Source: Eubacterium sp. (lineage in GTDB: Bacteria > Bacillota > Clostridia > Lachnospirales > Lachnospiraceae). Taken from it: 64,000 bases of DNA. Below are positions 42,851 through 57,263 of this stretch, piece by piece; the first letter of the stretch is position 1; each line of letters begins with the position of its first letter. Both the position numbers and the translations under genes were made by a program. The stretch lies in NCBI GenBank assembly GCA_017406925.1, contig JAFQXO010000015.1, positions 62,001 to 126,000 of the forward strand, written 5' to 3'. The notes under the pieces are model-generated. The model worked only from the letters and a program-made list of their open reading frames with translations. It was not told the DNA's origin and ran no database searches.

Positions 42851-44605
42851 CTAATTCTCATCCTGCAATGCCAAATATCCCGTGTCGCCGGTTCTGATCC
42901 TCATAATATCCTGAATCTGTGATACGAATATCTTTCCGTCGCCCACTTTACCTGTATAAAGAGCTTTTCTAGCTGCTGCAACTACGATATTCGGATCTAT
43001 CTTAGATACCACGATTTCGACCTTAACTTTTGGCTTGAGGTTCATACTCATATTAACACCACGGTATCTACCGGTCTTACCTTGCTCGACACCACAACCC
43101 ATAGCCTGAATAACCGTCATACCAGTTACACCCAGTTCAGCCATCGTGTCACGAAGCACTGTAAATCTGTCTTCGCTACATACGATAACAATCTTCGTTA
43201 GTGTGCCATCACTAGGCGGGCTACTCAAATGCAAGTGAGCCGGTTCTAATCCACTTAAGTCTACAGGTCCTGAACTTTCTCCCTTATATGCCGGGGCAAT
43301 AGGCAGGAAGTCCGCATACGCTGACGCCAAACCATGCTCGGAAATATCCATACCGGCCAACTCGTCCTCCTCGTCTGCACGAAGTCCTATAGTTTTCTTT
43401 ATTAGCATAAACACGCCGAACATCATAATCGCCGCGTATATATCAATTGCCAAAATACCTAGCGCCTGTATTCCGAGCAACTTAAATCCTCCACCATAGA
43501 ATAGTCCAGCATATTTCGAGCCATCGGCAAATGCCAGCACATGATCACCTCGTCCAGTCGCAAATAGTCCGACTGCCAATGTTCCCCAAATACCATTGCA
43601 CATGTGCACCGCTACGGCACCTACTGGGTCATCGATGTGGAATTTATTGTCTATGACATCTACTGCAATGTTTACTATGATACCTGCTACGGCACCTATG
43701 ATAAACGATCCTAAAGCATCGACCGAAGCACATCCCGCGGTCACTGCTACCAGTCCAGCCAGCGCCGCGTTGAGCGACATACCGACGTCTGGTTTCTTAT
43801 TTCTAATCCATGTGTAAATCATACACACTACTGTCGCTGATGCTGGGGCAATGGTTGTATTCATAAAAATAGCTGCTAATGAATCATTGTTGGTAGCTGC
43901 TGCACCGTTGAATCCATACCATCCAAACCAAAGGATGAATACACCTAACGCACCAAGTGTAAGTGAATGTCCCGGGATAGCGTTAACTTTCACTTCACCA
44001 GTCTTTCTTCTTGTGTACTTACCAATACGAGGTCCTACTATAATGGCACCTATCAAGGCTGCCACACCACCTACTGAGTGGATAACAGCTGATCCAGCAA
44101 AGTCTACGAAATGTAACTGCTGCAACCATCCTTTTCCTGCCAAGTTCCAAACCCATCCAGCGCTTATTGGGTATACCACCAAACTAATCAAAGCTGAATA
44201 GATACAGTAAGCACTAAACTTGGTACGCTCTGCCATCGCACCTGATACAATGGTAGCTGCTGTCGCACAGAATACTAACTGGAACACAAACTGTGAATAA
44301 TTGAAATGGTCAAAATTTGTGAAGATATCAAGGTTAGGTAGTCCTATCAATCCCATAATGTAGTCTTCTGACATCATTAAACCGTATCCCAAAAATACAA
44401 ACATGAATGTACCGATACAAAAGTCCATCAAGTTTTTCATTATGATGTTTCCGGCACTCTTCGCTCTGGTAAATCCACTCTCTACCATCGCAAATCCACA
44501 TTGCATAAAGAATACTAATGCTGCACCTATCAAAAACCAAATAGCAAAACTATTCGATGTTGCTTTTTCTAATATTTGGGTTGCCCCAACCGCGACTAAA
44601 TGCAT
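42851..44605 (-). CDS. amtB: Ammonium transporter AmtB fused to a PII domain
   Basis: A 584-residue fusion. The first 400 residues are an Amt/MEP/Rh ammonium channel with about 11 helices. The conserved ammonium-site region is seen in MQCGFAMVESGFTRAKSAGN, and the pore His segments in AVIHSVGG and VAVHMCNGIWG. After a linker, the last 115 residues are a complete PII (GlnB/GlnK) domain: T-loop GVEQGKTGRYRGVN, PKVKVEIVV, GKVGDGKIFV and RIRTG. The T-loop keeps the Tyr equivalent to Tyr46 but has Met at the Tyr51 uridylylation site. PII normally plugs AmtB, so the fusion puts channel and regulator in one chain. The ATG at 44605 has the best-spaced GGAG site. It lies 47 nt after glnN. Confidence 0.93.
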   Translation of the reverse strand: MHLVAVGATQILEKATSNSFAIWFLIGAALVFFMQCGFAMVESGFTRAKSAGNIIMKNLMDFCIGTFMFVFLGYGLMMSEDYIMGLIGLPNLDIFTNFDHFNYSQFVFQLVFCATAATIVSGAMAERTKFSAYCIYSALISLVVYPISAGWVWNLAGKGWLQQLHFVDFAGSAVIHSVGGVAALIGAIIVGPRIGKYTRRKTGEVKVNAIPGHSLTLGALGVFILWFGWYGFNGAAATNNDSLAAIFMNTTIAPASATVVCMIYTWIRNKKPDVGMSLNAALAGLVAVTAGCASVDALGSFIIGAVAGIIVNIAVDVIDNKFHIDDPVGAVAVHMCNGIWGTLAVGLFATGRGDHVLAFADGSKYAGLFYGGGFKLLGIQALGILAIDIYAAIMMFGVFMLIKKTIGLRADEEDELAGMDISEHGLASAYADFLPIAPAYKGESSGPVDLSGLEPAHLHLSSPPSDGTLTKIVIVCSEDRFTVLRDTMAELGVTGMTVIQAMGCGVEQGKTGRYRGVNMSMNLKPKVKVEIVVSKIDPNIVVAAARKALYTGKVGDGKIFVSQIQDIMRIRTGDTGYLALQDEN

Positions 44606-44652
44606 AATCATCACTCCAATCTATAATCAGTTCTCAAAAACTTTTCTCTATA

Positions 44653-46749
44653 TTATTTAACTCCAAATAACATTTCACCATATGATGGATATGGCCAATA
44701 TTCCTTAGCCACTATCATCTCTGCCTGATCGCAAGCCTCTCTTAGATTTTCCATTGTAGGAAGTACTTTATCTCTGATGGCATATCCTTGTTCAACAATA
44801 TCTTCGATAGCCACTTCCTCTTCTAGTACTTTCTCTAACGTATCTACTCCAGCAAATATTATGTCGTTGAGGCTAGATAATTTCTCCATAATATTCTTTT
44901 CATATGATATGGACATCTTAGAATCAACGTCTTGTTTCAACTTGGCGGTCTCAGCCACTTTGCTTAGATACATTTCTATAGAAGGTAGAATATCTTTCCT
45001 TACCATGTCTACCAAAGTGTTTCCTTCGATCGTTATAGTCTTACAATAGTTATCTAACATAATCTCCATACGGGAATTTAATTCTGCTGGAGTAAATACC
45101 TTTTGCTCTGTAAGCATCTTGACGTTCTTCTCGTCCAAAAGATGTGGCATACAATCTGCTGTCGTCTTATAGTTGAGCAAGCCTCTCTCCTCTGTAGCCT
45201 CTTTTATCCAAGACTCGTCATATCCGTTACCATTAAAGATGATTCTCTTGTGGTCTTTAATAGTCTTCTTAATCATATTGTGAAGTTCTTCATTGAAATC
45301 TTTCGCGCCCTCTAGTCTGTCAGCGTAAATCTTCAAACTCTCAGCTACCGCTGCGTTTAGCATAATGTTTACGCATGAAATACTATTCGAAGAACCTAGT
45401 GCTCTAAACTCAAACTTGTTTCCTGTGAAAGCGAATGGCGATGTTCTGTTTCTGTCAGTGTTGTCTCTCTTAAATCTAGGAAGAACATCTACACCTAACT
45501 TCATCTTCTTTGATTCGCCTGCCTCGTATGGCTCATCATTCATAATCGCCTTCATGATTTCTGTTAGCTCATCGCCAAGGAACATTGATACGACTGCAGG
45601 TGGTGCCTCATTTGCACCAAGTCTGTGATCGTTACCTGCTGTAGCCACTGAAATACGAAGCAGATCCTGATAATCATCGACAGCCTTGATAACCGCACAT
45701 AGGAATAGTAAGAACTGTGCATTCTCATGTGGTGTATCACCAGGGTTAAGTAAGTTTTCACCTGTATCTGTTCCCACTGACCAGTTATTGTGCTTACCAC
45801 TACCATTTACTCCTGCGAATGGCTTCTCATGAAGCAAACACACCAAGCCGTGCTTCGAAGCTACCTTTTGCATAATCTCCATCATCAACTGGTTGTGGTC
45901 AGCCGCAATGTTCGTAGTGTCATATATTGGCGCAAGCTCATGCTGAGCTGGAGCCACCTCGTTATGCTCTGTCTTCGCATAAATACCTAACTTCCAAAGT
46001 TCATCGTTTAGGTCTTCCATATACGCTGCCACTCTAGGCTTAATTACGCCAAAGTAGTGATCATCCAAATCCTGTCCTCTAGGTGGTCTAGAACCGACCA
46101 AAGTTCTACCTGTGTATTTAAGGTCAGGTCTCTTGTCATATTCTTTTCTATCAATAAGGAAGTACTCCTGCTCTGGTCCTACAGATGTACTTACATATTT
46201 GACATCTTCATTTCCAAAAAGTTTCAAGATTCTAAGTGCCTGCTTATTCAGCGCTTCCATTGATCTTAAAAGTGGAGTCTTCTTGTCTAGTGCCTCACCA
46301 CCATATGAGCAAAACGCTGTTGGTATGCATAACGTTGTTCCTTTTATGAACGCATATGATGTTGGATCCCATGCTGTGTAACCTCTAGCCTCAAATGTCG
46401 CTCTCAAACCTCCCGATGGGAATGATGATGCATCAGGCTCACCTTGAATCAATTCCTTTCCTGAAAATTCCATTAGCACTCCGCCATCTGGTGCTGGCGC
46501 AATAAAGCTATCATGCTTTTCTGCTGTTACACCTGTCAATGGTTGGAACCAATGTGTATAATGAGTAGCTCCGTTTTCTACAGCCCAATCTTTCATTGCT
46601 ATTGCAACTGCATCTGCTACTGTACTGTCTAATTTTGCTCCCTCGCTGATTGTCTTTTTCAAAGAATTGTAAACTTTACCAGACAATCTTGCCTTCATCT
46701 CTCTGTCGTCAAAAACCAACTTGCCAAAGTTTTCTTTTACCTGTTTCAT
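44653..46749 (-). CDS. glnN: Type III glutamine synthetase (GSIII)
   Basis: A 698-residue dodecameric-type GSIII that makes glutamine from glutamate, ammonia and ATP. The length is typical (about 700) and much larger than GSI. The family N-terminus is seen ([15 protein letters not shown]), with THWFQPLTG and [11 protein letters not shown] for the catalytic Glu. [26 protein letters not shown] and [22 protein letters not shown] follow. The ATG at 46749 has an AAGGAG site. An upstream ATG at 46872 would read through the attenuator hairpin. It is followed by the amtB-PII fusion and preceded by a promoter plus attenuator, pointing to nitrogen control by termination in the leader. Confidence 0.95.
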
Positions 46750-46822: not shown

Positions 46823-46870
46823 AAAAAAGGCGTCTCCAAGCTTTCGCTTGAAGACACCTTTGCCCTCATC
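46823..46870 (-). promoter_or_regulatory. Leader attenuator of glnN-amtB
   Basis: About 10 nt after the -10 box, the leader starts with GATGAGGGCAAAGG (46870-46857). This runs straight into a 15-bp terminator stem closed by a 4-base loop (46860-46827) and a T-run (46828-46823). The start codon of glnN is about 75 nt further on. CACCT (46878-46874) can pair with AGGTG in the terminator arm, giving a possible alternative fold. The motif recurs before the glutamate synthase operon and pyrG. Confidence 0.7.
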
Positions 46871-46880
46871 AATTAGGTGC

Positions 46881-46909
46881 ATTATAAACCCGTGTCAAAA
46901 TAATGTCAA
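46881..46909 (-). promoter_or_regulatory. glnN promoter
   Basis: On the minus strand a consensus TTGACA (46909-46904), a 17-nt spacer and consensus TATAAT (46886-46881). The match to sigma-A consensus is exact. Confidence 0.85.
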
Positions 46910-46971
46910 GCATTTTTCTTAATTTTTTTAAGTTAGATTTTAGTGCGCTTGATTTTCTTAATGAAAGTTGC

Positions 46972-47000
46972 TTGACATTTAATTATATTAAGTGTATAGT
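46972..47000 (+). promoter_or_regulatory. Promoter of the glutamate synthase operon
   Basis: TTGACA (46972-46977), a 17-nt spacer and TATAGT (46995-47000). It is divergent from the glnN promoter, with 62 nt between the two -35 boxes. Confidence 0.82.
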
Positions 47001-47007
47001 ATTCTTT

Positions 47008-47083
47008 GATGAGCAAAGGCGTTCATTATATACACGAGTATTCGTGTGTGTAATGAGCGTCTTTTCTTTTTACTTAATTTCTA
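47008..47083 (+). promoter_or_regulatory. Leader attenuator of the glutamate synthase operon
   Basis: Seven nt after the -10 box stands GATGAGCAAAGG (47008-47019). A long hairpin follows: an outer 12-bp stem AGGCGTTCATTA/TAATGAGCGTCT with two G-T pairs, and an inner ACACGA/TCGTGT. It ends in TTTTCTTTTT (about 47070-47083), 25 nt before the ATG. CTTTG and CAAAG around ATGAG can form a small rival stem. Confidence 0.7.
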
Positions 47084-47107
47084 TTTCATAACGAAGGGAG
47101 TTTAATA

Positions 47108-48202
47108 ATGAGGTTAGAGGGAGATATCCGAATTCCATCGGGTTGTGCTATTGCAGCCGTCATTTCTAAAGAAGGAAATGGAATACGCGGAGATGTGATT
47201 ACTAATGCAATGAAGCCAATGCACGATCGTTCCAACGGTCTAGGTGGTGGTTTTGCTGCATACGGAATATATCCAGAGTATAAAGACTTTTATGCTCTAC
47301 ATTTCTTTTTTAATAATCGAGATACGAGAAAGGCTACTGAGTCTTTCTTAAAAGAGCGCTTTGAAATAGTTCATCAGGAACAGATTCCTACAAGACAGGT
47401 TAAAAGTATCACAGATGTTCCTATGATATGGAGATACTTTGTTTCTCCTCTTAAGTCGATGATGGATCATTTACAACTTGATGAAAAAACATATGTAGCA
47501 AGAACTGTTATGGAAATCAATAACAACATTGATAATGCATATGTTTTTTCAAGCGGTAAAAACATGGGAGCTTTCAAAGCCGTTGGTTTCCCAGAAGACG
47601 TTGGTAAGTTCTATCGCCTAGAAGAATACGAAGGATATTCTTGGACAGCGCATGGCAGATATCCAACAAACACACCTGGTTGGTGGGGAGGTGCTCATCC
47701 ATTTACACTCCTCGACTACTCTATCGTACATAACGGTGAGATTTCCTCTTATGATTCAAATAGAAGATTTATCGAGATGTTTGGTTACAACTGTAATCTT
47801 CAAACAGATACAGAAGTTATAACTTACATCTTTGATTACTTAATTAGACGCCAGGGTTTAAGTTTAGAGGAAGCGGCGAATGTTGTGGCCGCACCATTCT
47901 GGAACACAATTGATTCTAAGCCAAAAAAAGAGCGAGAAAAACTCACTTATCTAAGAACTGCTTTTTCAAACCTACTAGTTACTGGTCCATTTTCAATTGT
48001 GCTTGGCTTTGACCGAGGCCTGATGGCATTGAACGATAGATTGAAGCTTCGTTCTATGGTTGTCGGCGAAAAGGATGATAAAGTCTTTATCGGCAGCGAG
48101 GAAGTTGCTATCAGAATGATGGAGCCTGACGCAGAAAACATTTACGCTCCAGCCGGTGGCGAACCAGTAATTGTGAAATTAAACGATGACGTAGTTATAT
48201 AG
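47108..48202 (+). CDS. Glutamate synthase amidotransferase subunit (archaeal-type GltB1)
   Basis: A 364-residue class II glutamine amidotransferase (glutamate synthase domain 1). It releases ammonia from glutamine for the synthase subunit encoded next. The expected catalytic Cys is residue 13 (IPSGCAIAAVI), so a 12-residue leader would have to be removed to free it. The family signatures AHGRYPTNTPGWWGGAHPF and LLDYSIVHNGEISSY, and the NLQTDTEVI pattern, are present. Stand-alone amidotransferase subunits are typical of archaeal-type, split glutamate synthases. A GGGAG site precedes the ATG. Transcription comes from the promoter and attenuator just upstream. Confidence 0.88.
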   Translation: MRLEGDIRIPSGCAIAAVISKEGNGIRGDVITNAMKPMHDRSNGLGGGFAAYGIYPEYKDFYALHFFFNNRDTRKATESFLKERFEIVHQEQIPTRQVKSITDVPMIWRYFVSPLKSMMDHLQLDEKTYVARTVMEINNNIDNAYVFSSGKNMGAFKAVGFPEDVGKFYRLEEYEGYSWTAHGRYPTNTPGWWGGAHPFTLLDYSIVHNGEISSYDSNRRFIEMFGYNCNLQTDTEVITYIFDYLIRRQGLSLEEAANVVAAPFWNTIDSKPKKEREKLTYLRTAFSNLLVTGPFSIVLGFDRGLMALNDRLKLRSMVVGEKDDKVFIGSEEVAIRMMEPDAENIYAPAGGEPVIVKLNDDVVI

Positions 48203-48245
48203 ATAGAATTAATTACAAAAGATCTACTGACGGAAAGGAACTGTT

Positions 48246-49751
48246 ATGAGTATTAATTATATATATCCTGAATTTGAAGTTGTAAGGGATGAAAGTAAAT
48301 GTATACATTGTAAAGTGTGTGTGCGCCAATGCGCCAACAAAGTTCACTCATATGATGAAAACTTAGATGTAGTAAAAGCTGACGAGTCAAAATGTGTGAA
48401 CTGCCAGCGTTGCGTTTCTCTTTGCCCTGTAAGGGCATTAAAGATCGTAAAGAGCGATTGTCGTTTAAGAGAAAATGCCAATTGGCAGGATAACACTATA
48501 AAAGAAATCTATAAGCAGGCAGACACAGGCGGAGTTCTACTCTCCTCTATGGGTAACCCAAAGCCAATGCCTGTTTACTGGCATAAGATTTTGATTAACG
48601 CATCTCAAGTAACTAACCCACCTATCGATCCTTTAAGAGAACCAATGGAGACAAAAGTTTTCTTAGGAAAGAAACCATCATTGGTGGAGAAGGATAAAAA
48701 TGGAAAACTGAAGTGTGACTTACCACCACAGTTAGAGTTGTCGATGCCAGTAATGTTCTCAGCGATGAGCTACGGCTCAATAAGCTACAATGCTCACGCA
48801 TCACTAGCTAGGGCATCAAAAGAACTTGGTATCTTCTACAACACAGGTGAAGGTGGACTTCACGAAGACTTCTATGAATATGGTGATAACACAATCGTTC
48901 AGGTTGCATCAGGTAGATTCGGTGTACATGAGGAATACCTAGAGACCGGTAAAGCTATCGAGATTAAGATGGGTCAGGGTGCTAAGCCAGGTATCGGTGG
49001 ACATCTTCCTGGAAAGAAAATCGTGGATGATGTATCAAGGACTCGAATGATTCCTGAAGGTTCAGACGCTATCAGTCCTGCCCCACATCACGACATCTAC
49101 TCGATTGAGGATTTGAGACAATTAGTTTTCTCTTTGAAAGAAGCTACTAACTATAAAAAACCTATTATCGTAAAGGTGGCGGCTGTTCATAACATCGCAG
49201 CCATCGCAAGTGGTATTGCTAGATCTGGCGCTGACATCATTGCGATTGATGGTTTTAGAGGTGGTACTGGTGCTGCTCCTACTCGCATCAGAGATAATGT
49301 GGGTATCCCAATAGAGTTGGCACTCGCTTCTGTCGATTCCAGACTTCGCGAGGAAGGAATAAGAAATAATGTTTCACTCGTGGTCGGAGGAAGTATCAGA
49401 AGCGCTGCTGATGTAGTCAAGGCCATTGCCCTCGGGGCAGACGCTTGCTATGTGGCTACTTCTGCACTACTCGCGATGGGATGTCACTTATGTCGAACTT
49501 GTCAGAGCGGCAAATGTAACTGGGGTATCGCAACACAAGACCCTGAGTTAGTGAAGAGACTAAATCCAGATATTGGAAGTCAACGACTAGTTAATCTGAT
49601 GAGTGCATGGAAACACGAGATTAAAGAGATAATCGGTGCGATGGGTATCAATTCCATTGAGGCCCTCAAAGGAAATAGATTGATGCTACGTGGCGTCGGC
49701 CTCAATGAAAAAGAATTAGAGATATTAGGAATTAAACACGCGGGAGAATAA
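48246..49751 (+). CDS. Glutamate synthase FMN/Fe-S subunit with ferredoxin domain (GltB2)
   Basis: A 501-residue synthase subunit that uses ammonia, 2-oxoglutarate and electrons to form glutamate. The N-terminal 70 residues hold two 4Fe-4S motifs (CIHCKVCVRQC and CVNCQRCVSLCP). The central TIM barrel (about 120-460) shows MSYGSISYNAHASLARASKEL, IDGFRGGTGAAPT and LVVGGSIRSAADVVKAIALGADAC, the FMN site. The 3Fe-4S motif is CHLCRTCQSGKCNWG. It starts 43 nt after the amidotransferase gene. Ferredoxin or the neighbouring flavoprotein may supply electrons; NADPH use would need the latter. Confidence 0.92.
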   Translation: MSINYIYPEFEVVRDESKCIHCKVCVRQCANKVHSYDENLDVVKADESKCVNCQRCVSLCPVRALKIVKSDCRLRENANWQDNTIKEIYKQADTGGVLLSSMGNPKPMPVYWHKILINASQVTNPPIDPLREPMETKVFLGKKPSLVEKDKNGKLKCDLPPQLELSMPVMFSAMSYGSISYNAHASLARASKELGIFYNTGEGGLHEDFYEYGDNTIVQVASGRFGVHEEYLETGKAIEIKMGQGAKPGIGGHLPGKKIVDDVSRTRMIPEGSDAISPAPHHDIYSIEDLRQLVFSLKEATNYKKPIIVKVAAVHNIAAIASGIARSGADIIAIDGFRGGTGAAPTRIRDNVGIPIELALASVDSRLREEGIRNNVSLVVGGSIRSAADVVKAIALGADACYVATSALLAMGCHLCRTCQSGKCNWGIATQDPELVKRLNPDIGSQRLVNLMSAWKHEIKEIIGAMGINSIEALKGNRLMLRGVGLNEKELEILGIKHAGE

Positions 49752-49753
49752 AG

Positions 49754-50182
49754 ATGAAGAAAGTATATGTTAATGAAGATTGGTGTTTGGGATGTCATCT
49801 ATGTGAATATAACTGCGCGTTCGCGAACTCTGGATGCGAAGATATGGTAAAAGCGCTAAAGGATAAGCCTATCTATCCTCGTATCAAAGTAGATGATAAA
49901 GATCAGATTCATTTTGCTGTATCTTGTCGTCACTGCGAAGATCCAATCTGTGTAAAGAGTTGTATCGCAGGTGCTATTTCTAAGAAAGATGGCGTGGTTA
50001 TGATAGATCGCGACAAGTGCGTAGGTTGTCATACTTGCGTTTTGGTTTGTCCTTACGGTTCTCTGACCGTGGGCGAAGATGGAACGATGACTAAGTGCGA
50101 ACTTTGCGTAAAGAATTCATGTGGCGAACCAGCCTGCGTTAAAGGCTGTCCAAACCGAGCAATAGTTTTTGAGGAGAGATAG
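49754..50182 (+). CDS. 4Fe-4S polyferredoxin electron-transfer subunit
   Basis: A 142-residue iron-sulfur protein with four cysteine clusters: CLGCHLCEYNC, CRHCEDPICVKSC, CVGCHTCVLVCP and CELCVKNSCGEPACVKGCP. The pattern is that of HycB/DmsB-type subunits holding up to four 4Fe-4S centres. It starts two bases after the stop of the synthase subunit and ends three bases before the next gene. It likely carries electrons between the flavoprotein and the synthase; that role is inferred from position. Confidence 0.88.
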   Translation: MKKVYVNEDWCLGCHLCEYNCAFANSGCEDMVKALKDKPIYPRIKVDDKDQIHFAVSCRHCEDPICVKSCIAGAISKKDGVVMIDRDKCVGCHTCVLVCPYGSLTVGEDGTMTKCELCVKNSCGEPACVKGCPNRAIVFEER

Positions 50183-50185
50183 ATT

Positions 50186-51442
50186 ATGAGTAAATATGTA
50201 ATTATCGGAAATGGTATTTCTTCTATAGGATGTATTGAGGGAATCAGAAGTGTGGACAAGGAAGGTTCCATTACTGTTATTGCGAAAGAAAAACATATGA
50301 CTTACGCAAGGCCTCTCATCTCCTACTACTTAGAAGGAAAAACTACTCTAAATAAAATGAAATATAGAACAAAGTCATTCTACACAAAGAACAATGTGGA
50401 AGTTTTATACGATACTGAAGTCACTAAAATAGATAAGAAGTCTAAGAAAGTTAGCTTTAAGTCTAAAGGTAAACGTGGTTCAAGAAGTTTTGAGAAACTT
50501 TGTATTTGTACTGGTTCTACTCCATTCGTTCCACCTTTTAAAGGTTTGGACACTGTGGAAAACAAGCATTGCTTTATGACCTTGGATGATACATTGGGAC
50601 TTGAAAAAGCAATCGATAAGAATTCTAGAGTTTTGATTATCGGTGCAGGTTTAATTGGCCTTAAGTGTGCTGAGGGAATTGCCGAGAGAGTTAAATCTAT
50701 TACAGTTTGTGATTTAGCTGACAGAGTTCTTTCAAGTATCTTGGATGCGGTTCCTGCAAAGATTATGCAAAACGTTTTAGAAGACGCTGGCGTTAAGTTT
50801 ATGCTTTCAAATTCAGTTGCTGAGTTTAATGGAAACACTGCTACTATGAACGATGGCTCGACCGTGGAGTTTGATGTTTTAGTTTTAGCAGTTGGCGTTA
50901 AAGCGAACACTTCTCTTGCATCAGATATTGGTTGCAAGGTTAATCGAGGAATCTTAGTGGATGAACACTGTATGACTAGTGTTAAAAATATTTACTCAGC
51001 TGGTGATTGCGCTGAAGGTTATGATTTAAGTTTAGGAGATCACAGAGTATTGGCTATTCTACCTAACGCTTACTTCCAAGGCGAATGTGCAGGTAAGAAT
51101 ATGGCTGGCGAATTATTTGAATTTACTAAAGGCATACCAATGAACTCAATCGGATTCTTTGGTCTTCACTCGATATCCGCTGGATCTTATTTCACAGAGA
51201 AAGACGGATGCACAGTTTATGAAGAAAAGACTGATTCTTCTATCAAGCGATTCTTCACAATGGACAACAAGCTAGTTGGATATATGCTAGTTGGAGATAC
51301 AGATAGGGCTGGAATCTTTACATCACTAATAAGAGAGGAAACTCCACTAGACAGTATAGATTTTGAAACATTAATGACTACTACTTCTCTCGGCTGCTTT
51401 GAAGCAGGCACTAGAGCTGAAAAACTAGGAAGTAGAGTTTAG
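50186..51442 (+). CDS. FAD/NAD(P)-dependent oxidoreductase of the glutamate synthase operon
   Basis: A 418-residue pyridine-nucleotide-disulfide-type oxidoreductase. FAD binding is seen at the N-terminus (YVIIGNGISSIGCIEGI). NAD(P) binding lies at about residues 148-180 (VLIIGAGLIGLKCAEGIAE), and the second FAD motif is IYSAGDCAEG. The family resembles NADH-dependent nitrite or rubredoxin reductases (COG1251/COG0446). In this operon it most likely takes electrons from NAD(P)H for the glutamate synthase. The last 120 residues form the usual C-terminal interface domain. Confidence 0.88.
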   Translation: MSKYVIIGNGISSIGCIEGIRSVDKEGSITVIAKEKHMTYARPLISYYLEGKTTLNKMKYRTKSFYTKNNVEVLYDTEVTKIDKKSKKVSFKSKGKRGSRSFEKLCICTGSTPFVPPFKGLDTVENKHCFMTLDDTLGLEKAIDKNSRVLIIGAGLIGLKCAEGIAERVKSITVCDLADRVLSSILDAVPAKIMQNVLEDAGVKFMLSNSVAEFNGNTATMNDGSTVEFDVLVLAVGVKANTSLASDIGCKVNRGILVDEHCMTSVKNIYSAGDCAEGYDLSLGDHRVLAILPNAYFQGECAGKNMAGELFEFTKGIPMNSIGFFGLHSISAGSYFTEKDGCTVYEEKTDSSIKRFFTMDNKLVGYMLVGDTDRAGIFTSLIREETPLDSIDFETLMTTTSLGCFEAGTRAEKLGSRV

Positions 51443-51450
51443 GAGGCATT

Positions 51451-52170
51451 ATGAATATTGTTGCAAACGATATAGATTACAAATTACTAAATGATAAGAT
51501 TAGAGAAAAAGGTAAGACAATCACTGTCAAAAATTGTTTGGGTCAGAGATTTATTGCCACAGGCATGAACGGCAAAGATATTACTATAGAAGGTATTCCA
51601 GGAAACGCTTTGGGCGCTTATCTTAACGGTGCAAACATTACTGTTGAAGGTAATGCGCAGGATGCTACTGGCGATACAATGAACGAGGGTAAGATTGTTA
51701 TTCACGGTAATATTGGCGATGCCGCAGGTTATGCTATGCGTGGCGGAAGCATCTTCGTCAAAGGTGATGCTGGTTATCGTGCTGGTATTCATATGAAGGC
51801 TTACAAAGAAAAAGTACCTTCTCTTATCATTGGCGGTAAGGCTGGAAGCTTCTTGGGCGAATATCAGGCTGGTGGCACAATTATCGTGCTCGGTCTTGAT
51901 AGCGAGGATGAGCGTATAGTTGGTAACTATGCTTGTACTGGAATGCACGGCGGAAAGATGTTTATCCGCAGTAAATGTAAAGGTGTGCACTTCCCACACC
52001 AAGTTACAGCTAGAAAAGCCACTTTAAAAGATAAAGCAGAAATCGAAGAATATATAGATGAATTCTGCAAACTTTTTGGTTATAATAAGAAAGACGTTAT
52101 GGATTCAGACTTCACAGTCGTAATTCCTGACAGCAAAAATCCGTATCAACAAATGTATGTAGCCAATTAA
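51451..52170 (+). CDS. Glutamate synthase GXGXG subunit (GltB3)
   Basis: A 239-residue right-handed beta-helix protein corresponding to the C-terminal alpha domain of GltB. The GXGXG-type repeats are clear: GNALGAYLNGANITVEGNAQ, then GDTMNEGKIVIHGNIGDAAG and MRGGSIFVKGDAGYRAG. In GltB this domain links amidotransferase and synthase parts. The gene completes the split glutamate synthase set. It has a strong AGGAGG site 4 nt before the ATG, 8 nt after the flavoprotein stop. A terminator follows. Confidence 0.9.
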   Translation: MNIVANDIDYKLLNDKIREKGKTITVKNCLGQRFIATGMNGKDITIEGIPGNALGAYLNGANITVEGNAQDATGDTMNEGKIVIHGNIGDAAGYAMRGGSIFVKGDAGYRAGIHMKAYKEKVPSLIIGGKAGSFLGEYQAGGTIIVLGLDSEDERIVGNYACTGMHGGKMFIRSKCKGVHFPHQVTARKATLKDKAEIEEYIDEFCKLFGYNKKDVMDSDFTVVIPDSKNPYQQMYVAN

Positions 52171-52190
52171 ACATTTAAAAAAGATACTAA

Positions 52191-52226
52191 AATAACTACC
52201 TGCATTATGTTGGTAGTTATTTTTTA
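52191..52226 (+). terminator. Intrinsic terminator between glutamate synthase and glnA
   Basis: A 10-bp stem (AATAACTACC with GGTAGTTATT), a 10-nt loop and a T-run. It ends the glutamate synthase transcript or acts as a leader attenuator of glnA, 32 nt before its ATG. The GATGAG..CAAAGG motif is absent. Confidence 0.82.
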
Positions 52227-52257
52227 TTTATACGTGAATTAATATTTGGAGGTTATT

Positions 52258-53463
52258 ATGATTTACACCAAAGAAGAAGTTATGGAATATGTGAACGAGG
52301 AGGATGTGGCGTTTATCCGCCTTGCGTTCTGCGATATTTGTGGCAAACAAAAAAATATTTCTATTATGGCAGGAGAATTGGAGCGAGCATTCACAAATGG
52401 AATTGCTTTCGACCCTTCTTCTATTGAAGGTTTTGGAAATATCACTAATTCAGACTTAGTACTTCATCCAGACCCTTCTACTCTTATGTTGCTTCCTTGG
52501 AGGCCTGAACGTGGAAAGGTTGTTAGAATGTACTGCTCCATCACTTATGCTGATGGAAGTCCTTTTGAGTGCGATTCAAGAACGCTACTTGCCGATGCTG
52601 TGAAAGAAGCCGTCGACAAAGGCCTTGAGCTTTCTTTCGGTTCTGAGCAAGAGTTCTACTTATTTAAGTTGGACGAAGATGGAAATCCTACAAAAGATCC
52701 ATATGATTTTGCCGGAGATATGGATATTGCGCCAGAGGATAAAGGAGAAAACATCCGTCGTGAGATTTGTTTGACTTTGGATCAGATGGGTATTAAGCCT
52801 GAGAGTTCTCACCACGAAGAAGGTCCTGGTCAAAATGAGATTGACTTCAAATATGCGGATGCACTATCAACCGCAGATAACGTAATGACTTTCCAGACTA
52901 TCGTTAAGTCAGTTTCTGGAAGAAATGGTTTGCACGCAGACTTCTCTGCTAAGCCACTTGCTAACCATCCAGGAAATGGCTTCCATATAAATGTTTCAAT
53001 AGATAAAAACTATACCGACGAGGCCTTCGAAGGCATGTGCGCAGGTATCTTAGAAAAGACTAAGGAAATAACAGCGTTCCTAAATCCAACCGAAAACTCT
53101 TACGAGAGATTTGGCGACGACAAGGCGCCATCATACATCACTTGGTCTAAGGAAAACCGTTCTCAACTAGTCCGCGTTACTGCTACTGCCAGAGACAATG
53201 CTAGAGTTGAGCTTCGCTCACCAGACTCTATGGCAAATCCATATGTAGCATTTGCTCTAATCATAAAGGCAGCTTTGTATGGTATCGAAAATGAGTTAAA
53301 ACTTCCTGATCCAGTTGATGTTTCAGATTTGGAACACGATTCTACTCTTTCGAAGAGCACGGACCAACTTCCTAAATCACTCAAGGAAGCTAAATCCATC
53401 ACTCTTGGCAGTGACTTTGTTAAAAGCAGTTTGAATAATGGAATACTTGAATATTTAAAATAA
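52258..53463 (+). CDS. glnA: Short type I glutamine synthetase
   Basis: A 401-residue GSI-type glutamine synthetase, shorter than the usual 440-470. Catalytic-site segments are present: FGSEQEFYLFK, HHEEGPGQNEIDFKYADA, NGFHINVS and RVTATARDNARVELRSPDS. The PNPYVAFAL-type motif appears as ANPYVAFAL. The long C-terminal extension and the adenylylation region of enterobacterial GSI are missing. The ATG at 52258 follows GGAGGTTATT; a TTG four codons upstream is not preferred. It lies between the glutamate synthase operon and an ANTAR regulator gene. With glnN it gives the cell two unrelated-type glutamine synthetases. Confidence 0.92.
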   Translation: MIYTKEEVMEYVNEEDVAFIRLAFCDICGKQKNISIMAGELERAFTNGIAFDPSSIEGFGNITNSDLVLHPDPSTLMLLPWRPERGKVVRMYCSITYADGSPFECDSRTLLADAVKEAVDKGLELSFGSEQEFYLFKLDEDGNPTKDPYDFAGDMDIAPEDKGENIRREICLTLDQMGIKPESSHHEEGPGQNEIDFKYADALSTADNVMTFQTIVKSVSGRNGLHADFSAKPLANHPGNGFHINVSIDKNYTDEAFEGMCAGILEKTKEITAFLNPTENSYERFGDDKAPSYITWSKENRSQLVRVTATARDNARVELRSPDSMANPYVAFALIIKAALYGIENELKLPDPVDVSDLEHDSTLSKSTDQLPKSLKEAKSITLGSDFVKSSLNNGILEYLK

Positions 53464-53479
53464 TTGTCGTTGAGGTTTT

Positions 53480-54058
53480 ATGAGTTTAAAGGAAAAGACT
53501 TACAGCGTTCTCGTTGTTAGCGTTTCAAAAAACTTCATAACTGACATGCACACTCTACTCTCTAGTTCGAAATATGAGGCTGTGAAATATACAGGCTCTG
53601 TTTCTAGTGCAAAACGCGCAAATCTAGAGAAGGCGTACGACATTGTGATTATTGATACACCTCTGCCAGACGATACTGGCGATGAACTAGCTGTTGATTT
53701 GTCGACGAATGAAAACTCTATAGTTATGATGCTAGTACACTACGATTTGTACGAAGAAGTGCACGAAAACTACTCAAAATACGGCATATTTGTGGCTTCT
53801 AAGCCAACTTCAGTGGAAATCCTATCTCAATCATTAAATTGGCTAAAAAGCGCTAGAGAGCGCACGAGAAGCTACGAGAAAAGGACATTATCTATAGAAG
53901 ATAAGATGCAAGAAATTAGGCTTGTTAACCTGGCCAAACTTAAACTTATCACTGATAAGGGAATGAGTGAGGACGAAGCTCATAAGTATATATCTAAACA
54001 GGCGATGGATAAATGTGTTAATAAAGGTGCTATTGCACAAGAAATATTAAACAAATAG
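53480..54058 (+). CDS. ANTAR-domain antitermination regulator with pseudo-receiver
   Basis: A 192-residue regulator. The N-terminal 115 residues are receiver-like, with Asp in VIIIDTPLPDDTG and Lys in VASKPTS. The acidic pair normally after beta1 is missing (LVVSVSKNF), so phosphorylation may be lost. A short coiled coil leads to the C-terminal ANTAR domain (about 140-190): KLKLITDKGMSEDEAHKYI, then SKQAMDK. ANTAR proteins bind paired hexaloop RNA hairpins and prevent terminator formation. The gene starts 16 nt after glnA and ends at a strong terminator. The glutamine-related leaders with terminators in this window are its natural candidate targets, but the classic paired-hexaloop structure was not found in them. 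Confidence 0.88.
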   Translation: MSLKEKTYSVLVVSVSKNFITDMHTLLSSSKYEAVKYTGSVSSAKRANLEKAYDIVIIDTPLPDDTGDELAVDLSTNENSIVMMLVHYDLYEEVHENYSKYGIFVASKPTSVEILSQSLNWLKSARERTRSYEKRTLSIEDKMQEIRLVNLAKLKLITDKGMSEDEAHKYISKQAMDKCVNKGAIAQEILNK

Positions 54059-54060
54059 TA

Positions 54061-54089
54061 AAAAGTTCTACCATGATGGTAGAACTTTT
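54061..54089 (+). terminator. Terminator of the glnA-ANTAR unit
   Basis: A perfect 13-bp stem (AAAAGTTCTACCA with TGGTAGAACTTTT, loop TGA) lies directly after the regulator stop. Confidence 0.93.
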
Positions 54090-54092
54090 ATG

Positions 54093-54141
54093 GTGCCCGC
54101 AAGGGGCTATGCGAAAATACGATGCCCGCTAAGGGGCTACG
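54093..54141. repeat. Two tandem GCCC-hairpin units
   Basis: GTGCCCGCAAGGGGCTATG (54093-54111) and ATGCCCGCTAAGGGGCTACG (54122-54141) are near-copies 29 nt apart. Each can fold as GCCC/GGGC with a 5- or 6-nt loop. The second is extended by UACG/CGUA pairs. They stand between a terminator and a convergent gene, with no coding frame. Confidence 0.5.
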
Positions 54142-54207
54142 TACTTTAATTTTAACGAAATATTTATATATGTCAATTCTTTTTTCAATCAATAATTAAT
54201 CAACTCT

Positions 54208-54678
54208 TTAATCAAATACCAGTTCCATATTATTCTTCTTAACTTTCATTCCCATCTTCTCATAAAACTCTTTTGCCACATCATTTCCTTCCCAAACATT
54301 CAATGTGATCTCAAAGCATCCTATCTGCCTGGCATATTCTTTAGCAAATTCAAACAACTTTTGTCCAATACGCTTTCCTCTCTCACTTTGATCTACACAC
54401 AAATCATCTATATAAAGATACTTGAAACTTTTCATAAATCTAGATTCGGGTTGATATTTTACTTCACAGAAAACATAACCCAATACCTTGTCATCTTCTG
54501 CTGCCACAAAGATAGGTCTGTTATCATCATAAATAATATCCATCAATTCTTCCTCAGAATACTTTGTGCTTCCAGAAACAAACAAGTCTGGTCTAACATT
54601 TGCATGTAATTCTAAAACTTCGCTTAACAAATCTAAAATTTGATCTGTATCTTTTTTATCTGCTCTCCTAATAATCAT
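54208..54678 (-). CDS. GNAT-family N-acetyltransferase
   Basis: A 156-residue acetyltransferase using acetyl-CoA. The CoA-binding motif is DLCVDQSERGKRIGQKLFEFAKEYA, followed by FEITLNVWEGNDVAKEFYEKMG. This order is typical of GNAT proteins acting on amines of small molecules or proteins. The substrate is unknown. It has an AAGGAA site and lies 25 nt after the small HMA-type gene, the third gene of a short minus-strand group. Confidence 0.88.
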   Translation of the reverse strand: MIIRRADKKDTDQILDLLSEVLELHANVRPDLFVSGSTKYSEEELMDIIYDDNRPIFVAAEDDKVLGYVFCEVKYQPESRFMKSFKYLYIDDLCVDQSERGKRIGQKLFEFAKEYARQIGCFEITLNVWEGNDVAKEFYEKMGMKVKKNNMELVFD

Positions 54679-54703
54679 ATTTATTCCTTTTCATAAAATA
54701 GAT

Positions 54704-54925
54704 TTATTCATAATTAACAGATAGGATCTTATACCCAATTTCATCTACTGCTTTTTTAAGTTTATCAATATCTGGTTTTTCCTCTGTGACAAATCTGCTC
54801 ATATTTTTCTTATGAGAGCTCTTAACCTTTTTAGCATCAGGAATGGTTTTTCTAATCACATCATTCATATGTGCTTCGCACATACCGCACATCATTCCAT
54901 CTATCTCTAAAACTGTTTTTACCAT
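54704..54925 (-). CDS. Small heavy-metal-associated (HMA-like) protein
   Basis: A 73-residue protein of ferredoxin-like fold. It starts MVKTVLEIDGMMCGMCEAHMND, where the CGMC pair matches the GMxCxxC metal site of HMA proteins. The rest (KPDIDKLKKAVDEIGYKILSVNYE) fits the family's second half. It is slightly longer in the middle (KKVKSSHKKNMSRF), with a basic insertion. The ATG at 54925 follows GGAGGAG; a longer frame from 54973 overlaps the upstream GNAT gene. A copper chaperone-like role is possible but not shown by neighbours. Confidence 0.8.
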   Translation of the reverse strand: MVKTVLEIDGMMCGMCEAHMNDVIRKTIPDAKKVKSSHKKNMSRFVTEEKPDIDKLKKAVDEIGYKILSVNYE

Positions 54926-54948
54926 TTTATGCTCCTCCATTAAGTTCT

Positions 54949-55428
54949 TTATAGTTCTATATAATAAGGACATATATTTTCATATGTACCATCTTTCATT
55001 CTAAATCCCTTTGTAATAGTGCCAAGTTGCATGAAGCCCAATTTTTCATACAAATGCCTAGCCCCCTTATTGGTTTCAACGACTGCATTTAATTGTAAGA
55101 CTTTAAATCCCAATTCTTTTGCTCTATCCATACAATCTTTTACTAGATATTCCCCGATATGATTTCCTCTATGGGATTCACATACAGCATAACTAGCATT
55201 ACAAATATGACCACATCTTCCCACGTTATTAGGATGAAGAATATATAATCCAACTATTTTGTCATTGTCTTCTGCTACTCCCACATAGCTTTGCCCACTA
55301 AAAAACTCTTTTGCTGTTTCCTCGTTCAGTTTTTCCTCCTGTGGAAATGCAACGCCTTCTTCTACTATATTATTCCATAAGGCAAGCATTTGTGTTATAT
55401 CATTTTCGTCATATTTTCTAATTATCAT
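54949..55428 (-). CDS. GNAT-family N-acetyltransferase
   Basis: A 159-residue acetyltransferase. The CoA-binding region reads ASYAVCESHRGNHIGEYLVKDCMDRAKELGF, followed by LQLNAVVETNKGARHLYEKLGF. The N-terminus (IIRKYDENDITQMLALWNNIVEEG) is typical. The substrate is unknown. It is the first gene after the promoter block shared with the TfoX_N operon and precedes the HMA-like gene by 23 nt. Confidence 0.88.
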   Translation of the reverse strand: MIIRKYDENDITQMLALWNNIVEEGVAFPQEEKLNEETAKEFFSGQSYVGVAEDNDKIVGLYILHPNNVGRCGHICNASYAVCESHRGNHIGEYLVKDCMDRAKELGFKVLQLNAVVETNKGARHLYEKLGFMQLGTITKGFRMKDGTYENICPYYIEL

Positions 55429-55465
55429 TTACTATACCTTTACAAATTCAAATTTTTCTTACAAC

Positions 55466-55507
55466 TTTAATTATAAACCATACAAGTTATAAGGCAACAA
55501 AAAAGAG
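55466..55507 (-). promoter_or_regulatory. Promoter block, copy 2 of a 42-bp repeat
   Basis: On the minus strand TTGCCT (55497-55492), a 16-nt spacer and TATAAT (55475-55470) precede the GNAT start by 41 nt. The block nearly matches 37664-37705. Its outer end overlaps the T-run of the pyrG terminator, and the other copy keeps that T-run. Confidence 0.62.
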
Positions 55508-55524
55508 CCCTTGAGGGCTCTTTT
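55501..55524 (-). terminator. pyrG intrinsic terminator
   Basis: A 10-bp stem (AAAAGAGCCC with GGGCTCTTTT, loop TTGA on the plus strand) with a T-run on the minus strand, 5 nt after the pyrG stop. Confidence 0.92.
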
Positions 55525-55529
55525 CATTA

Positions 55530-57146
55530 TTAATTATTTGCAACAATTGCTTCTACAAACTTTCTGAATATTGGCTGTGGTCTGTTAGGTCTCGATTTGA
55601 ATTCTGGATGGAACTGAACTCCAATAAAGAATGGATGATCTTTCACCTCTACTGTCTCGACCAAAAGCCCATCTGGTGACATTCCAGATAACACTAATCC
55701 GTTTTCTGTTAGCACATCTCTATAGTCATTATTAAACTCATATCTATGTCTGTGTCTCTCACTTATACTTAAGTCACCATAGCACTTTTCCATCAATGTG
55801 CCTTCGGCAATCTCACATGGATATGCTCCTAGTCTTAACGTGCCGCCTTTATCTACTTCATCTGATTGACCAGGCATAAAGTCTATAACCTTATGGTCTG
55901 TTGTTTTCTCAAACTCTCCTGAGCAAGCATCCTTTATACCAGCCACATTTCTAGCATACTCAATAACTGCCACTTGCATTCCAAGACAAATTCCAAAGTA
56001 TGGAATCTTGTTTTCTCTAGCATACTGTGCCGCTAAAATCATTCCTTCCACTCCACGGTTTCCAAATCCTCCTGGGATAATGATTCCTTGAACATCTTTT
56101 AAGCGTTCTTCATAGTTACTTTCATCCAAAGTTTCAGAATCAATCCAATCAATATTAATATGCGCGTGGTTAAAGAATCCTGAATGATTTAGTGCTTCTA
56201 CTATTGATAGGTACGCATCATGAAGTTGCACATATTTACCCACTAGTCCAACAGTCACTTCTTTAGATCTATTTTCAATATTGCTTACAACATTCTTCCA
56301 TTCAGTTAAATCAGGTTTCGGAGCATCAATCTTCAACTCTCTACAAACCACATCTGAAAGATTTGCATCCTCCAGCATCAACGGTACTTCATAAAGGTTA
56401 TCTAGATTTTTATTTTCTATTACACAGTCTTCCTTTACATTACAGAACATTGCAATCTTCTTAAAGATTGACTCTTCCATTGGCTCATCACATCTTAAAA
56501 CAACGATGTCTGGTCTAACTCCCAAGCCCTGCAACTCTTTTACTGAGTGCTGTGTAGGTTTTGTCTTGTGCTCTTTTGATGCATGTAAATATGGAACAAG
56601 TGTCACGTGAATAAACAAGCTATTCTCGGTTCCAACCTCCAATGAAACCTGTCTTACCGCCTCGATAAATGGCTGTGATTCAATATCACCTATGGTTCCA
56701 CCAATCTCTGTTATAACAACATCAGCGTCCGACTCATGTCCCACTCTATAAATAAACTCTTTTATTTCATTTGTAATGTGCGGAATTACTTGAACTGTTG
56801 AACCAAGGTACTCTCCCTTTCTCTCCTTATTCAATACATTCCAGTATACTTTTCCAGACGTCAGATTTGAAAACTTATTCAAGTCCTCGTCAATAAATCT
56901 CTCATAGTGACCCAAGTCCAAATCTGTCTCTGCGCCGTCTTCTGTCACATATACTTCCCCGTGCTGGTAAGGACTCATTGTTCCTGGATCCACATTGATA
57001 TATGGGTCTAACTTTTGCGCAGCAACTTTCAAACCTCTAGCCTTTAGAAGCCTTCCCAATGATGCCGCTGTTATACCTTTTCCCAATCCAGATACAACTC
57101 CGCCTGTAACAAAAATATACTTTTTCATTTTCTTTCCCTTACTCAT
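55530..57146 (-). CDS. pyrG: CTP synthase
   Basis: A 538-residue CTP synthase that aminates UTP with glutamine-derived ammonia. The N-terminal synthase domain has [18 protein letters not shown] (P-loop type) and [21 protein letters not shown]. The C-terminal class I amidotransferase domain has the nucleophile Cys in [15 protein letters not shown] and the His-Pro-Glu in [12 protein letters not shown]. Length is normal. The start at 57146 has GAGGTT upstream; an ATG six codons later is also possible. It is a single-gene unit with a promoter, a leader attenuator that shares its motif with the glutamine genes, and a terminator. Confidence 0.97.
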
Positions 57147-57175
57147 AATCTAACCTCTATTTTTCAAAAATTCCT

Positions 57176-57226
57176 ATAAAAAAAGAGAGTCCTAGAACCA
57201 TAGTTCTAAGACTCCTTTGCCTCATC
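57176..57226 (-). promoter_or_regulatory. Leader attenuator of pyrG
   Basis: Eight nt after the -10 box the leader begins GATGAGGCAAAGG (57226-57214). A 12-bp terminator stem follows (arms 57214-57203 and 57198-57187, two G-T or mismatch positions) and a T-run (57184-57176). The pyrG start is 30 nt further on. Bacillus pyrG also uses a leader terminator, there with a GGGC start and G-slippage; that start is not seen here. Confidence 0.7.
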
Positions 57227-57234
57227 ACCATTAT

Positions 57235-57263
57235 ATTTTACTCCTCATTATGTAAAAAGTCAA
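57235..57263 (-). promoter_or_regulatory. pyrG promoter
   Basis: On the minus strand TTGACT (57263-57258), a 17-nt spacer and TAAAAT (57240-57235). A TATAAT follows at 57235-57230, but it has no -35 box at normal spacing. Confidence 0.65.

Follow-up and report, generated by a model that had tools for sequence, protein, structure and literature searches.

Three leaders in front of glutamine genes

The window analyzed here, a 64-kb stretch of a Eubacterium sp. contig (JAFQXO010000015.1, family Lachnospiraceae) from a genome of 1.28 Mb that is 84% complete, carries three transcription units that make or use glutamine: glnN-amtB, a glutamate synthase (glt) operon in line with glnA and a gene for an ANTAR protein, and pyrG. 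Our subject is the short RNA leader in front of each of these units. A preliminary description of the window had noted that all three leaders share GATGAG, zero to two further G, and CAAAGG, placed 7 to 10 nucleotides (nt) behind a promoter and ahead of a terminator, and this was confirmed in the sequence. The motif reads GATGAGGGCAAAGG for glnN (46870-46857, reverse strand), GATGAGCAAAGG for glt (47008-47019, forward strand) and GATGAGGCAAAGG for pyrG (57226-57214, reverse strand). In all three leaders it follows a −35/−10 pair with a 17-nt spacer, begins 10 (glnN), 7 (glt) and 8 nt (pyrG) beyond the −10 box, and leads directly into a strong hairpin and a U-tract. The features of the leaders are as follows, with the loops of hairpins in square brackets and the basis of each assignment in parentheses.

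46881 to 46909, reverse strand: glnN promoter, −35 TTGACA at 46909-46904 and −10 TATAAT at 46886-46881 (sequence)
46849 to 46868, reverse strand: glnN leader, putative antiterminator hairpin UGAGGGC[AAAGGU]GUCUUCA, hexaloop with A at position 1 (A1) and G at position 4 (G4) (sequence, scan, covariation)
46823 to 46861, reverse strand: glnN leader, intrinsic terminator using the hexaloop and 3' arm of the antiterminator (sequence, folding)
46972 to 47000, forward strand: glt promoter, TTGACA at 46972-46977 and TATAGT at 46995-47000 (sequence)
47007 to 47028, forward strand: glt leader, putative antiterminator hairpin UGAUGAGC[AAAGGC]GUUCAUUA (sequence, scan, folding)
47015 to 47072, forward strand: glt leader, intrinsic terminator and U-tract (sequence, folding)
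57235 to 57263, reverse strand: pyrG promoter, TTGACT at 57263-57258 and TAAAAT at 57240-57235 (sequence)
57207 to 57224, reverse strand: pyrG leader, putative antiterminator hairpin UGAGGC[AAAGGA]GUCUUA (sequence, scan)
57178 to 57218, reverse strand: pyrG leader, intrinsic terminator (sequence, folding)

The terminators fold with −31.1 (glnN), −34.8 (glt) and −22.1 kcal/mol (pyrG), and for each leader none of 200 shuffled sequences folded as well. RNA synthesis of the glnN leader is predicted, from the promoter sequence, to start about 7 nt past the −10 box, and the hairpins lie near the predicted 5' end. A device in these leaders would act on about the first 20 nt of the RNA, similar to the first 15 nt or so that had been proposed. 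The pattern GATGAGN{0,3}CAAAGG occurs five times in the window's genome, namely in the three leaders and in the coding sequences of thrS and ftsK (both named by eye), and the reversed control pattern does not occur there at all.

A hexaloop hairpin that competes with the terminator

In each window leader, the bases ahead of the loop pair with the bases beyond the next six. As judged from the sequence, GATGAG(G)(G)CAAAGG thus makes up the 5' half of a hexaloop hairpin of the ANTAR type, C[AANGGN]G, which agrees with the loop rule given for ANTAR target RNAs, A at position 1 and G at position 4 (PMC3369931). The hairpin overlaps the 5' arm of the intrinsic terminator, and since the hexaloop and 3' arm double as that arm, the two structures are mutually exclusive. 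Ahead of the glnN, glt and pyrG orthologues of the genus, the pairing is kept and GATGAG is not; we rejected GATGAG as the recognized sequence, given that only 5 of 43 aligned leaders have it. The new motif or ligand considered in the preliminary description therefore gives way to one half of a known kind of hexaloop. The description had also reported that the classical target with two hexaloops was not found; this holds for the second hexaloop, while one hexaloop had been overlooked in each leader.

When the 64-kb window was scanned for hexaloops with A1, G4 and a stem of at least 5 that overlap a terminator, exactly the three leaders were recovered, in line with the earlier proposal of one attenuation device common to the three units. 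The same scan of the window plus eight loci (L176-L183) gave 16 matches, all before glnN, glt, pyrG or purF, and none on the reversed sequences. A looser scan (stem of at least 4, wider sequence set) yielded 30 distinct forward rows, four of them false-looking, against 5 matches in a reversed control over 752,737 bases. Of the 30 rows, 23 entered a first alignment, leaving out the false-looking L045, L108, L133:4850 and L153:987 and the near-duplicates L023, L074 and L133:3648. A second alignment of 43 leaders added 20 of 42 further rows; excluded were opposite-strand rows, duplicates, the dual element L221, the long-looped L217 (carA) and L226, two rows from nifH (L223, L228), an asnB row of L218, L230 (G000:C9:212741) and L229, which lack a hexaloop, and L227, which has a hexaloop but a chemotaxis-type gene downstream.

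Compensatory change supports the stem in both alignments. With counts that refer to related sequences rather than independent events, 97.1% of the stem cells are paired in the first alignment, with 31 double-change cells against 7.8 ± 4.6 in shuffles, and 92.6% in the second, with 67 against 20.8 ± 5.0; sliding the latter by one to three columns lowers pairing to 35 to 52%. Because the 5' arm lies outside the terminator, constraint on the terminator alone cannot produce this covariation. The hairpin columns of the 43 leaders contain no gaps, all 43 have a six-nt loop with a closing C-G pair, and the only invariant columns, C12, A13, A14, G16 and G19, are this closing pair and loop positions A1, A2 and G4. 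Loop position 3, which is also within the terminator, takes all four letters, position 4 is G in every leader, and positions 5 and 6 change jointly with their terminator partners. The combination of A1 and G4 is present in 43/43, all of them selected as hexaloop leaders; among 63 further matches of a family-wide model (see below), with hexamers read by fixed offset from the model match, A1 was found in 62 and G4 in 63, which is partly by construction since the model picked them.

The distance from promoter to hairpin is nearly fixed: the hairpin starts a median of 10 nt past the −10 box and, among the 82 leaders whose promoter is good, within 12 nt in 66 cases, so that the RNA should start a few bases ahead of it, leaving no room for a second hexaloop (P1). 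None was found in any of the window's leaders. A search of 93 rows, two of them without a hexaloop to start from, for a second hexaloop in the stretch from −10 box to hairpin returned one in 1 of 91 leaders, with a chance-like, U-rich stem, and none could fit the short gaps. Searches reaching further upstream found candidates in 5 of 32 rows (stems of at least 3; 32 of 42 rows used), in 3 of 54 (55 of 57 rows taken, one without a hexaloop) and in 2 of 24 (with the wrong loop picked for L408 and none for L423 and L431). One of these, L221 (G055), upstream of a xanthine-dehydrogenase-type gene, is a good dual element, AAATAC[AAAGAC]GTATTT and AAGGC[AAGGGA]GCCTT separated by 8 nt, and serves as the sole positive control of the search. 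Another, TGTC[AATGGA]GACA, lies 29 nt upstream of the gltB hexaloop of L216 (G029, upstream of 8668) and has the right loop and closing pair. Should this leader be transcribed from a point further upstream, the candidate may be a genuine second loop, and it is the only sign of a dual target in a leader of the family. The remaining candidates overlap promoter elements or sit 13 to 54 nt off, at no common place.

Some leaders depart from the simple arrangement. Two successive hexaloop-terminator units stand before glnN in L342, L334, L405, L401 and L333 (genes by eye), which suggests a steeper or two-step switch. In L370, L335, L387 and L332, units with one hexaloop each and no promoter in view apparently lie between gdhA and glnN (genes by eye). 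The glnN leaders L128-L135, from part of the genus, carry an extra 5' hairpin upstream of the hexaloop, whose loop is often GNRA-like and is not an A1/G4 hexaloop.

Genes downstream of the leaders

Even without an RNA model, a hexaloop leader is found in 20 of 22 upstream regions of glnN orthologues in the genus, and the glt form in 7/7 of those of glt. In a scan of 60 relatives with model R1, the three window leaders ranked first in their own genome (E values of 6.9e-8, 3.6e-6 and 2.8e-5), where the next match appeared only at E 0.005. In five close relatives purF precedes pyrG; the purF leaders that we read (G018, G003 and G015) have the same hexaloop and clearly resemble the pyrG leader of the window, and R1 matches the corresponding place in G001 and G010. 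In G007 and G016, pyrG follows gltD (named by eye). The pyrG leader of the window may thus be an old purF leader that now fronts pyrG.

For the family-wide scan that the preliminary description had called for, model R2 was run at E ≤ 0.001 over 200 Lachnospiraceae genomes, one per genus, and gave 79 matches in 56 genomes, among them the glnN and pyrG leaders of the window. These matches do not fall at random genes: 67 of the 79 directly precede glnN, glnA, amtB, gltB, gdhA, purF, pyrG, carA or asnB. R2 had been trained with all 16 of the matches seen previously, with none of the other 63, and without carA or gdhA leaders. For the 63, we took the first recognized gene starting within 330 nt of the first base of the leader (tblastn, with intervening frames checked), which is a gene of this set in 51 cases (glnN 24, amtB 7, gltB 6, asnB 5, carA 3, purF 3, pyrG 2, glnA 1); one further leader stands before gdhA, followed by glnN (L318). 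The other 11 comprise an LL-diaminopimelate aminotransferase gene (L272), amino-acid-type ABC transporters (L277, L311), circularly permuted ATP-grasp genes (L302, L305) and PPDK_N-type proteins (L304, L325), in both pairs with the first identified by Pfam and the second by eye, as well as aspS-gatC about 430 nt away (L320), FAD oxidoreductases (L309), an MntP-type gene about 440 nt away (L293) and no gene (L303). Of the 16 seen previously, 15 stand directly before a gene of the glutamine set. The remaining one is a purF leader that is separated from purF by an IS200-type transposase gene, at 2116-3075 of L218 (G025).

In a class-wide draw, 26 of 291 genomes had matches, and 19 matches lay outside the family. 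Twelve of these are directly before glnN (nine), glnA, amtB or glt; one each precedes a GatD-type glutamine amidotransferase gene with purC, a circularly permuted ATP-grasp gene and an ABC transporter, and four have no clear target (L408, L413, L423, L431). Cultured strains with model matches include Suipraeoptans intestinalis 68-1-5 (L384), Enterocloster hominis BX10 (L366) and Neglectibacter timonensis SN17 (L401). The exact motif with a terminator tail made a poor probe for the family and was rejected: its 38 matches in 34 of 200 genomes are mostly not terminator-like, as judged by eye except for the three window leaders and two others examined closely. Of these two, the one in G233 (L056) is a leader-like unit with its 5' side cut by the contig end, and the one in G118 (L058), a genome without an ANTAR match, is a terminator whose six-base loop is unclosed (C against C), with no promoter evident by eye. 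A probe with a looser tail in the genus was likewise rejected, as it returned the window leaders, the glt leader of close relatives and, by eye, mostly chance matches.

Further observations concern the surroundings of individual leaders. In four genera, a leader of this kind stands before a gene for a circularly permuted ATP-grasp protein, in L056 (G233), L302 (G174), L305 (G083) and L412 (G320), with the gene identified by Pfam for L302, by tblastn for L412 and by eye for L056 and L305; in L302 it is followed by Alpha-E and transglutaminase-type genes, and this cluster may belong to nitrogen metabolism. L303 (G215; 3047-3001, reverse strand) is a full promoter-hexaloop-terminator unit divergent from glnA (by eye) with no clear downstream gene, and it might be an orphan leader or a small RNA that titrates the ANTAR protein. 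Hexaloop-terminator units also stand before the nitrogenase gene nifH in L223 (G055, Pfam) and, two in a row, in L228 (G058, by eye). In L215 (G024), glnN and the amtB hexaloop leader are separated by a Clostridiales-1 RNA (RF01699, 108.8 bits) at 13818-13982. In L413 (G410), a single-hexaloop leader near 1512 (reverse strand) lies some 600 nt ahead of eutA, and no Rfam RNA was found between the two.

The ANTAR protein as candidate reader of the hairpin

The genes served by the leaders and the candidate regulator are arranged in the window as follows; of the glutamate synthase genes, only the first and last were run against Pfam.

42851 to 44614, reverse strand: amtB, fused to a C-terminal P-II domain in one protein (reading frames, Pfam)
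44653 to 46749, reverse strand: glnN, glutamine synthetase III (reading frames, Pfam)
47108 to 52170, forward strand: genes for glutamate synthase that stand in line with glnA and the ANTAR gene, at 47108-48202 (GATase_2), 48246-49751, 49754-50182, 50186-51442 and 51451-52170 (GXGXG)
52246 to 53463, forward strand: glnA, glutamine synthetase I, directly upstream of the ANTAR gene (reading frames, Pfam, neighborhood)
53480 to 54058, forward strand: ANTAR protein with a weak receiver-like domain, candidate antiterminator (PF03861)
55530 to 57146, reverse strand: pyrG, CTP synthase (named in the preliminary description and by eye)

The protein encoded at 53480-54058, already suspected in the preliminary description, matches PF03861 with 45 bits (cut-off, 27.3), while its receiver-like match of 27.5 bits stays under the cut-off of 30.2. 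Compared with EutV (6wsh; residue numbers and roles as in PMC8934654), it keeps the positions of Met172 and Glu160 and has His in place of Tyr164, as does AmiR. We collected its homologues into a set of 79, the window protein and 78 of the best 80 loci that it found, omitting L362 and L377, where the match is cut at the locus edge. His168, Lys173, Gln174, Ala175 and Met176 are invariant among the 79, Ser always takes the first position of the acidic pair, and the phospho-acceptor position holds Asn (74 proteins), Asp (4) or Cys (1). The window protein keeps the acceptor Asp and lacks the acidic pair, and hence does not have the full set of residues looked for in a phosphorylated response regulator. 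In all 74 of the 78 loci that have at least 600 nt upstream, glnA directly precedes the ANTAR gene. ANTAR genes were found in 175 of the 200 family genomes (five of those without being inferred from absence in the list of matches) and in 0 of 14 control genomes; the window's genome gave one match, as did most of those listed. The RNA motif (E ≤ 0.001) occurs in 55 of the 175 genomes with an ANTAR gene versus 1 of the 25 without (Fisher P = 0.003). This lone genome, G245, is 70% complete, and its leader, L292, is the only one of the 63 whose loop has lost A1.

Several known systems resemble parts of this arrangement. With the EutV system of Enterococcus faecalis, the leaders share the short hairpin, the six-nt loop with A1 and G4 and the overlap with the 5' arm of the terminator, and the genome likewise has an ANTAR gene. 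The leaders differ from those of EutV in having one hexaloop rather than two, a hairpin at the predicted 5' end of the RNA, and nitrogen-assimilation rather than ethanolamine genes downstream; the regulator differs in its pseudo-receiver, with Asn as acceptor in 74/79 homologues, and in the His at Tyr164 of EutV. NitR of Clostridium saccharobutylicum is described in a review (PMC6316151), citing Stutz 2007, as an ANTAR protein that induces the glutamine synthetase (GS) and glutamate synthase (GOGAT) genes by antitermination upon nitrogen limitation. The likeness lies in the reported link of an ANTAR protein with GS/GOGAT genes, and in contrast to NitR the gene set here extends to purF, pyrG, carA, asnB, gdhA, amtB and others. 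AmiR of Pseudomonas aeruginosa (1qo0) shares the pseudo-receiver, described in PMC8934654 as devoid of the residues for phosphorylation, and the His aligned to Tyr164 of EutV; it is regulated by AmiC (PMC8934654), whereas the neighbor here is a glutamine synthetase gene. Glutamine synthetase as a sensor for a gene regulator has its model in Bacillus subtilis, where it serves TnrA (PMC6316151); unlike the ANTAR protein, TnrA binds DNA, and contact of GlnA with the ANTAR protein is a guess. Work with a dual-hairpin model has reported ANTAR control for nitrogen genes, among them those of ammonium transporters and of the synthases for glutamate and glutamine (PMC3369931). Antitermination by ANTAR proteins is thus already known, and the single-hexaloop form seems to be new; a limited literature search, and hence weak evidence of absence, found no report of single-hexaloop terminator leaders or of the Lachnospiraceae gene set.

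Based on sequence comparison, each of the three leaders is very probably an ANTAR-type antitermination switch under protein control, pared down to a single hexaloop, and its likely reader is the pseudo-receiver protein encoded at 53480, beside glnA. RNA polymerase would start a few nucleotides ahead of the hairpin. In the default state, the terminator would take up the loop and 3' arm, and transcription would stop about 40 to 65 nt in. When active, the ANTAR protein would bind the hexaloop (A1, A2, G4 and the closing C-G pair) as the hairpin leaves the polymerase, and the bound hairpin, being held, would deny the terminator its 5' arm, so that glnN-amtB, the glutamate synthase-glnA-ANTAR operon and pyrG would then be transcribed. 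Since genes that make glutamine and genes that spend it share this device, a response of the same sign is expected for all; by analogy with NitR, it would be read-through when nitrogen or glutamine is short. As to the input, nearly all homologues lack a working phosphorylation site and glnA is a constant neighbor, which makes contact with the neighboring glutamine synthetase, rather than phosphorylation, the input we favor, with the glnA product as a possible sensor partner. Another candidate for the input is the fusion of AmtB and P-II at 42851.

Several observations weigh against this interpretation. In eut, antitermination needs both hexaloops and a linker of limited length, 5 to 12 nt between P1 and P2 (PMC3369931, PMC8934654), so that under this model a single hexaloop would not be expected to be enough. 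In isolation, the hairpin is weak, at −6.2 to −8.3 kcal/mol versus −22 to −35 kcal/mol for the terminators, and the folded glnN leader adds an A1-U6 pair within the loop, giving a tetraloop. Part of the conservation of A1 and A2, which face the U-tract, could be that of the terminator. At E ≤ 0.001, R2 missed the window's own glt leader and found no motif in 144 of the 200 genomes, 120 of them with an ANTAR gene. Finally, two second copies of glnN, in L138 (G007) and L139 (G016), have no leader directly upstream, nor do 18 of 19 pyrG orthologues in 23 genomes of the genus, the exception being that of the window.

The facing of A1 and A2 to the U-tract, together with that of G4 and G5 to the C's of the stem, would also fit a plain terminator, an A-tract and GC-rich base without an antiterminator, whose shared letters would reflect terminator grammar and ancestry, given that most leaders tested come from one family. 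We consider this very improbable, because in the 43 leaders the two arms of the stem covary even though the upstream one is no part of the terminator, the six-nt loop and its closing pair are constant while position 3 varies freely, and the matches concentrate on glutamine genes. A glutamine riboswitch, a T-box or a leader peptide might be suspected from the glutamine-linked genes and from the AUG inside GATGAG in the three leaders, and seems to us the least probable explanation of all. The comparison with Rfam proposed earlier matched no known family at gathering score, in the window or in leaders of seven other loci, and we rejected a known RNA (glutamine riboswitch, T-box or other leader RNA) on this ground; around the window leaders, even E ≤ 1 gave only three matches, none of them relevant. 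To our knowledge, an element of about 20 nt is too small for the known aptamers. Besides the scarcity of GATGAG, any ATG in the first 14 nt is kept in only 10 of the 43 leaders, and a leader peptide starting in GATGAG was rejected accordingly.

The two other alternatives keep a protein-bound hairpin. If transcription started before the predicted promoter, P1 could lie further upstream and the target would be a classical dual hexaloop, the kind described in PMC3369931; a similar detector did find the dual element L221, and the gltB leader of G029 has its possible second loop. Such a target is quite improbable, considering the short distance from −10 box to hairpin, the single chance-like candidate among 91 leaders within it, and the scattered or promoter-overlapping positions of the wider-search candidates apart from L221. 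That another RNA-binding protein, rather than the one at 53480, reads the hairpin would fit the 120 of 175 ANTAR-bearing genomes without a motif match at E ≤ 0.001. We regard it as improbable, since the A1/G4 loop rule is the one described for ANTAR, the window's genome and most others listed have a single ANTAR match, and the only one of 63 leaders without A1 comes from G245, where no ANTAR gene was found in a genome that is 70% complete.

Taken together, the sequence comparisons indicate that a widespread single-hexaloop variant of ANTAR antitermination controls a glutamine regulon, a function that we infer. A tentative and rather doubtful extension is that, Clostridia-wide, a phosphorylation-free ANTAR protein with the adjacent glutamine synthetase as its sensor sets GS, GOGAT, PurF, PyrG, CarAB and AsnB through one 5'-terminal hexaloop. 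If this were true, the need for two hexaloops to catch the polymerase in time would not be general, and natural one-loop switches, repeated across many genera, make the question of that need testable. Searches for dual motifs would not be expected to detect such leaders. For an abundant gut family, they provide a candidate global glutamine regulon that includes purine, pyrimidine, asparagine and ammonium genes, and they point to the pair of glutamine synthetase and ANTAR protein as its sensor.

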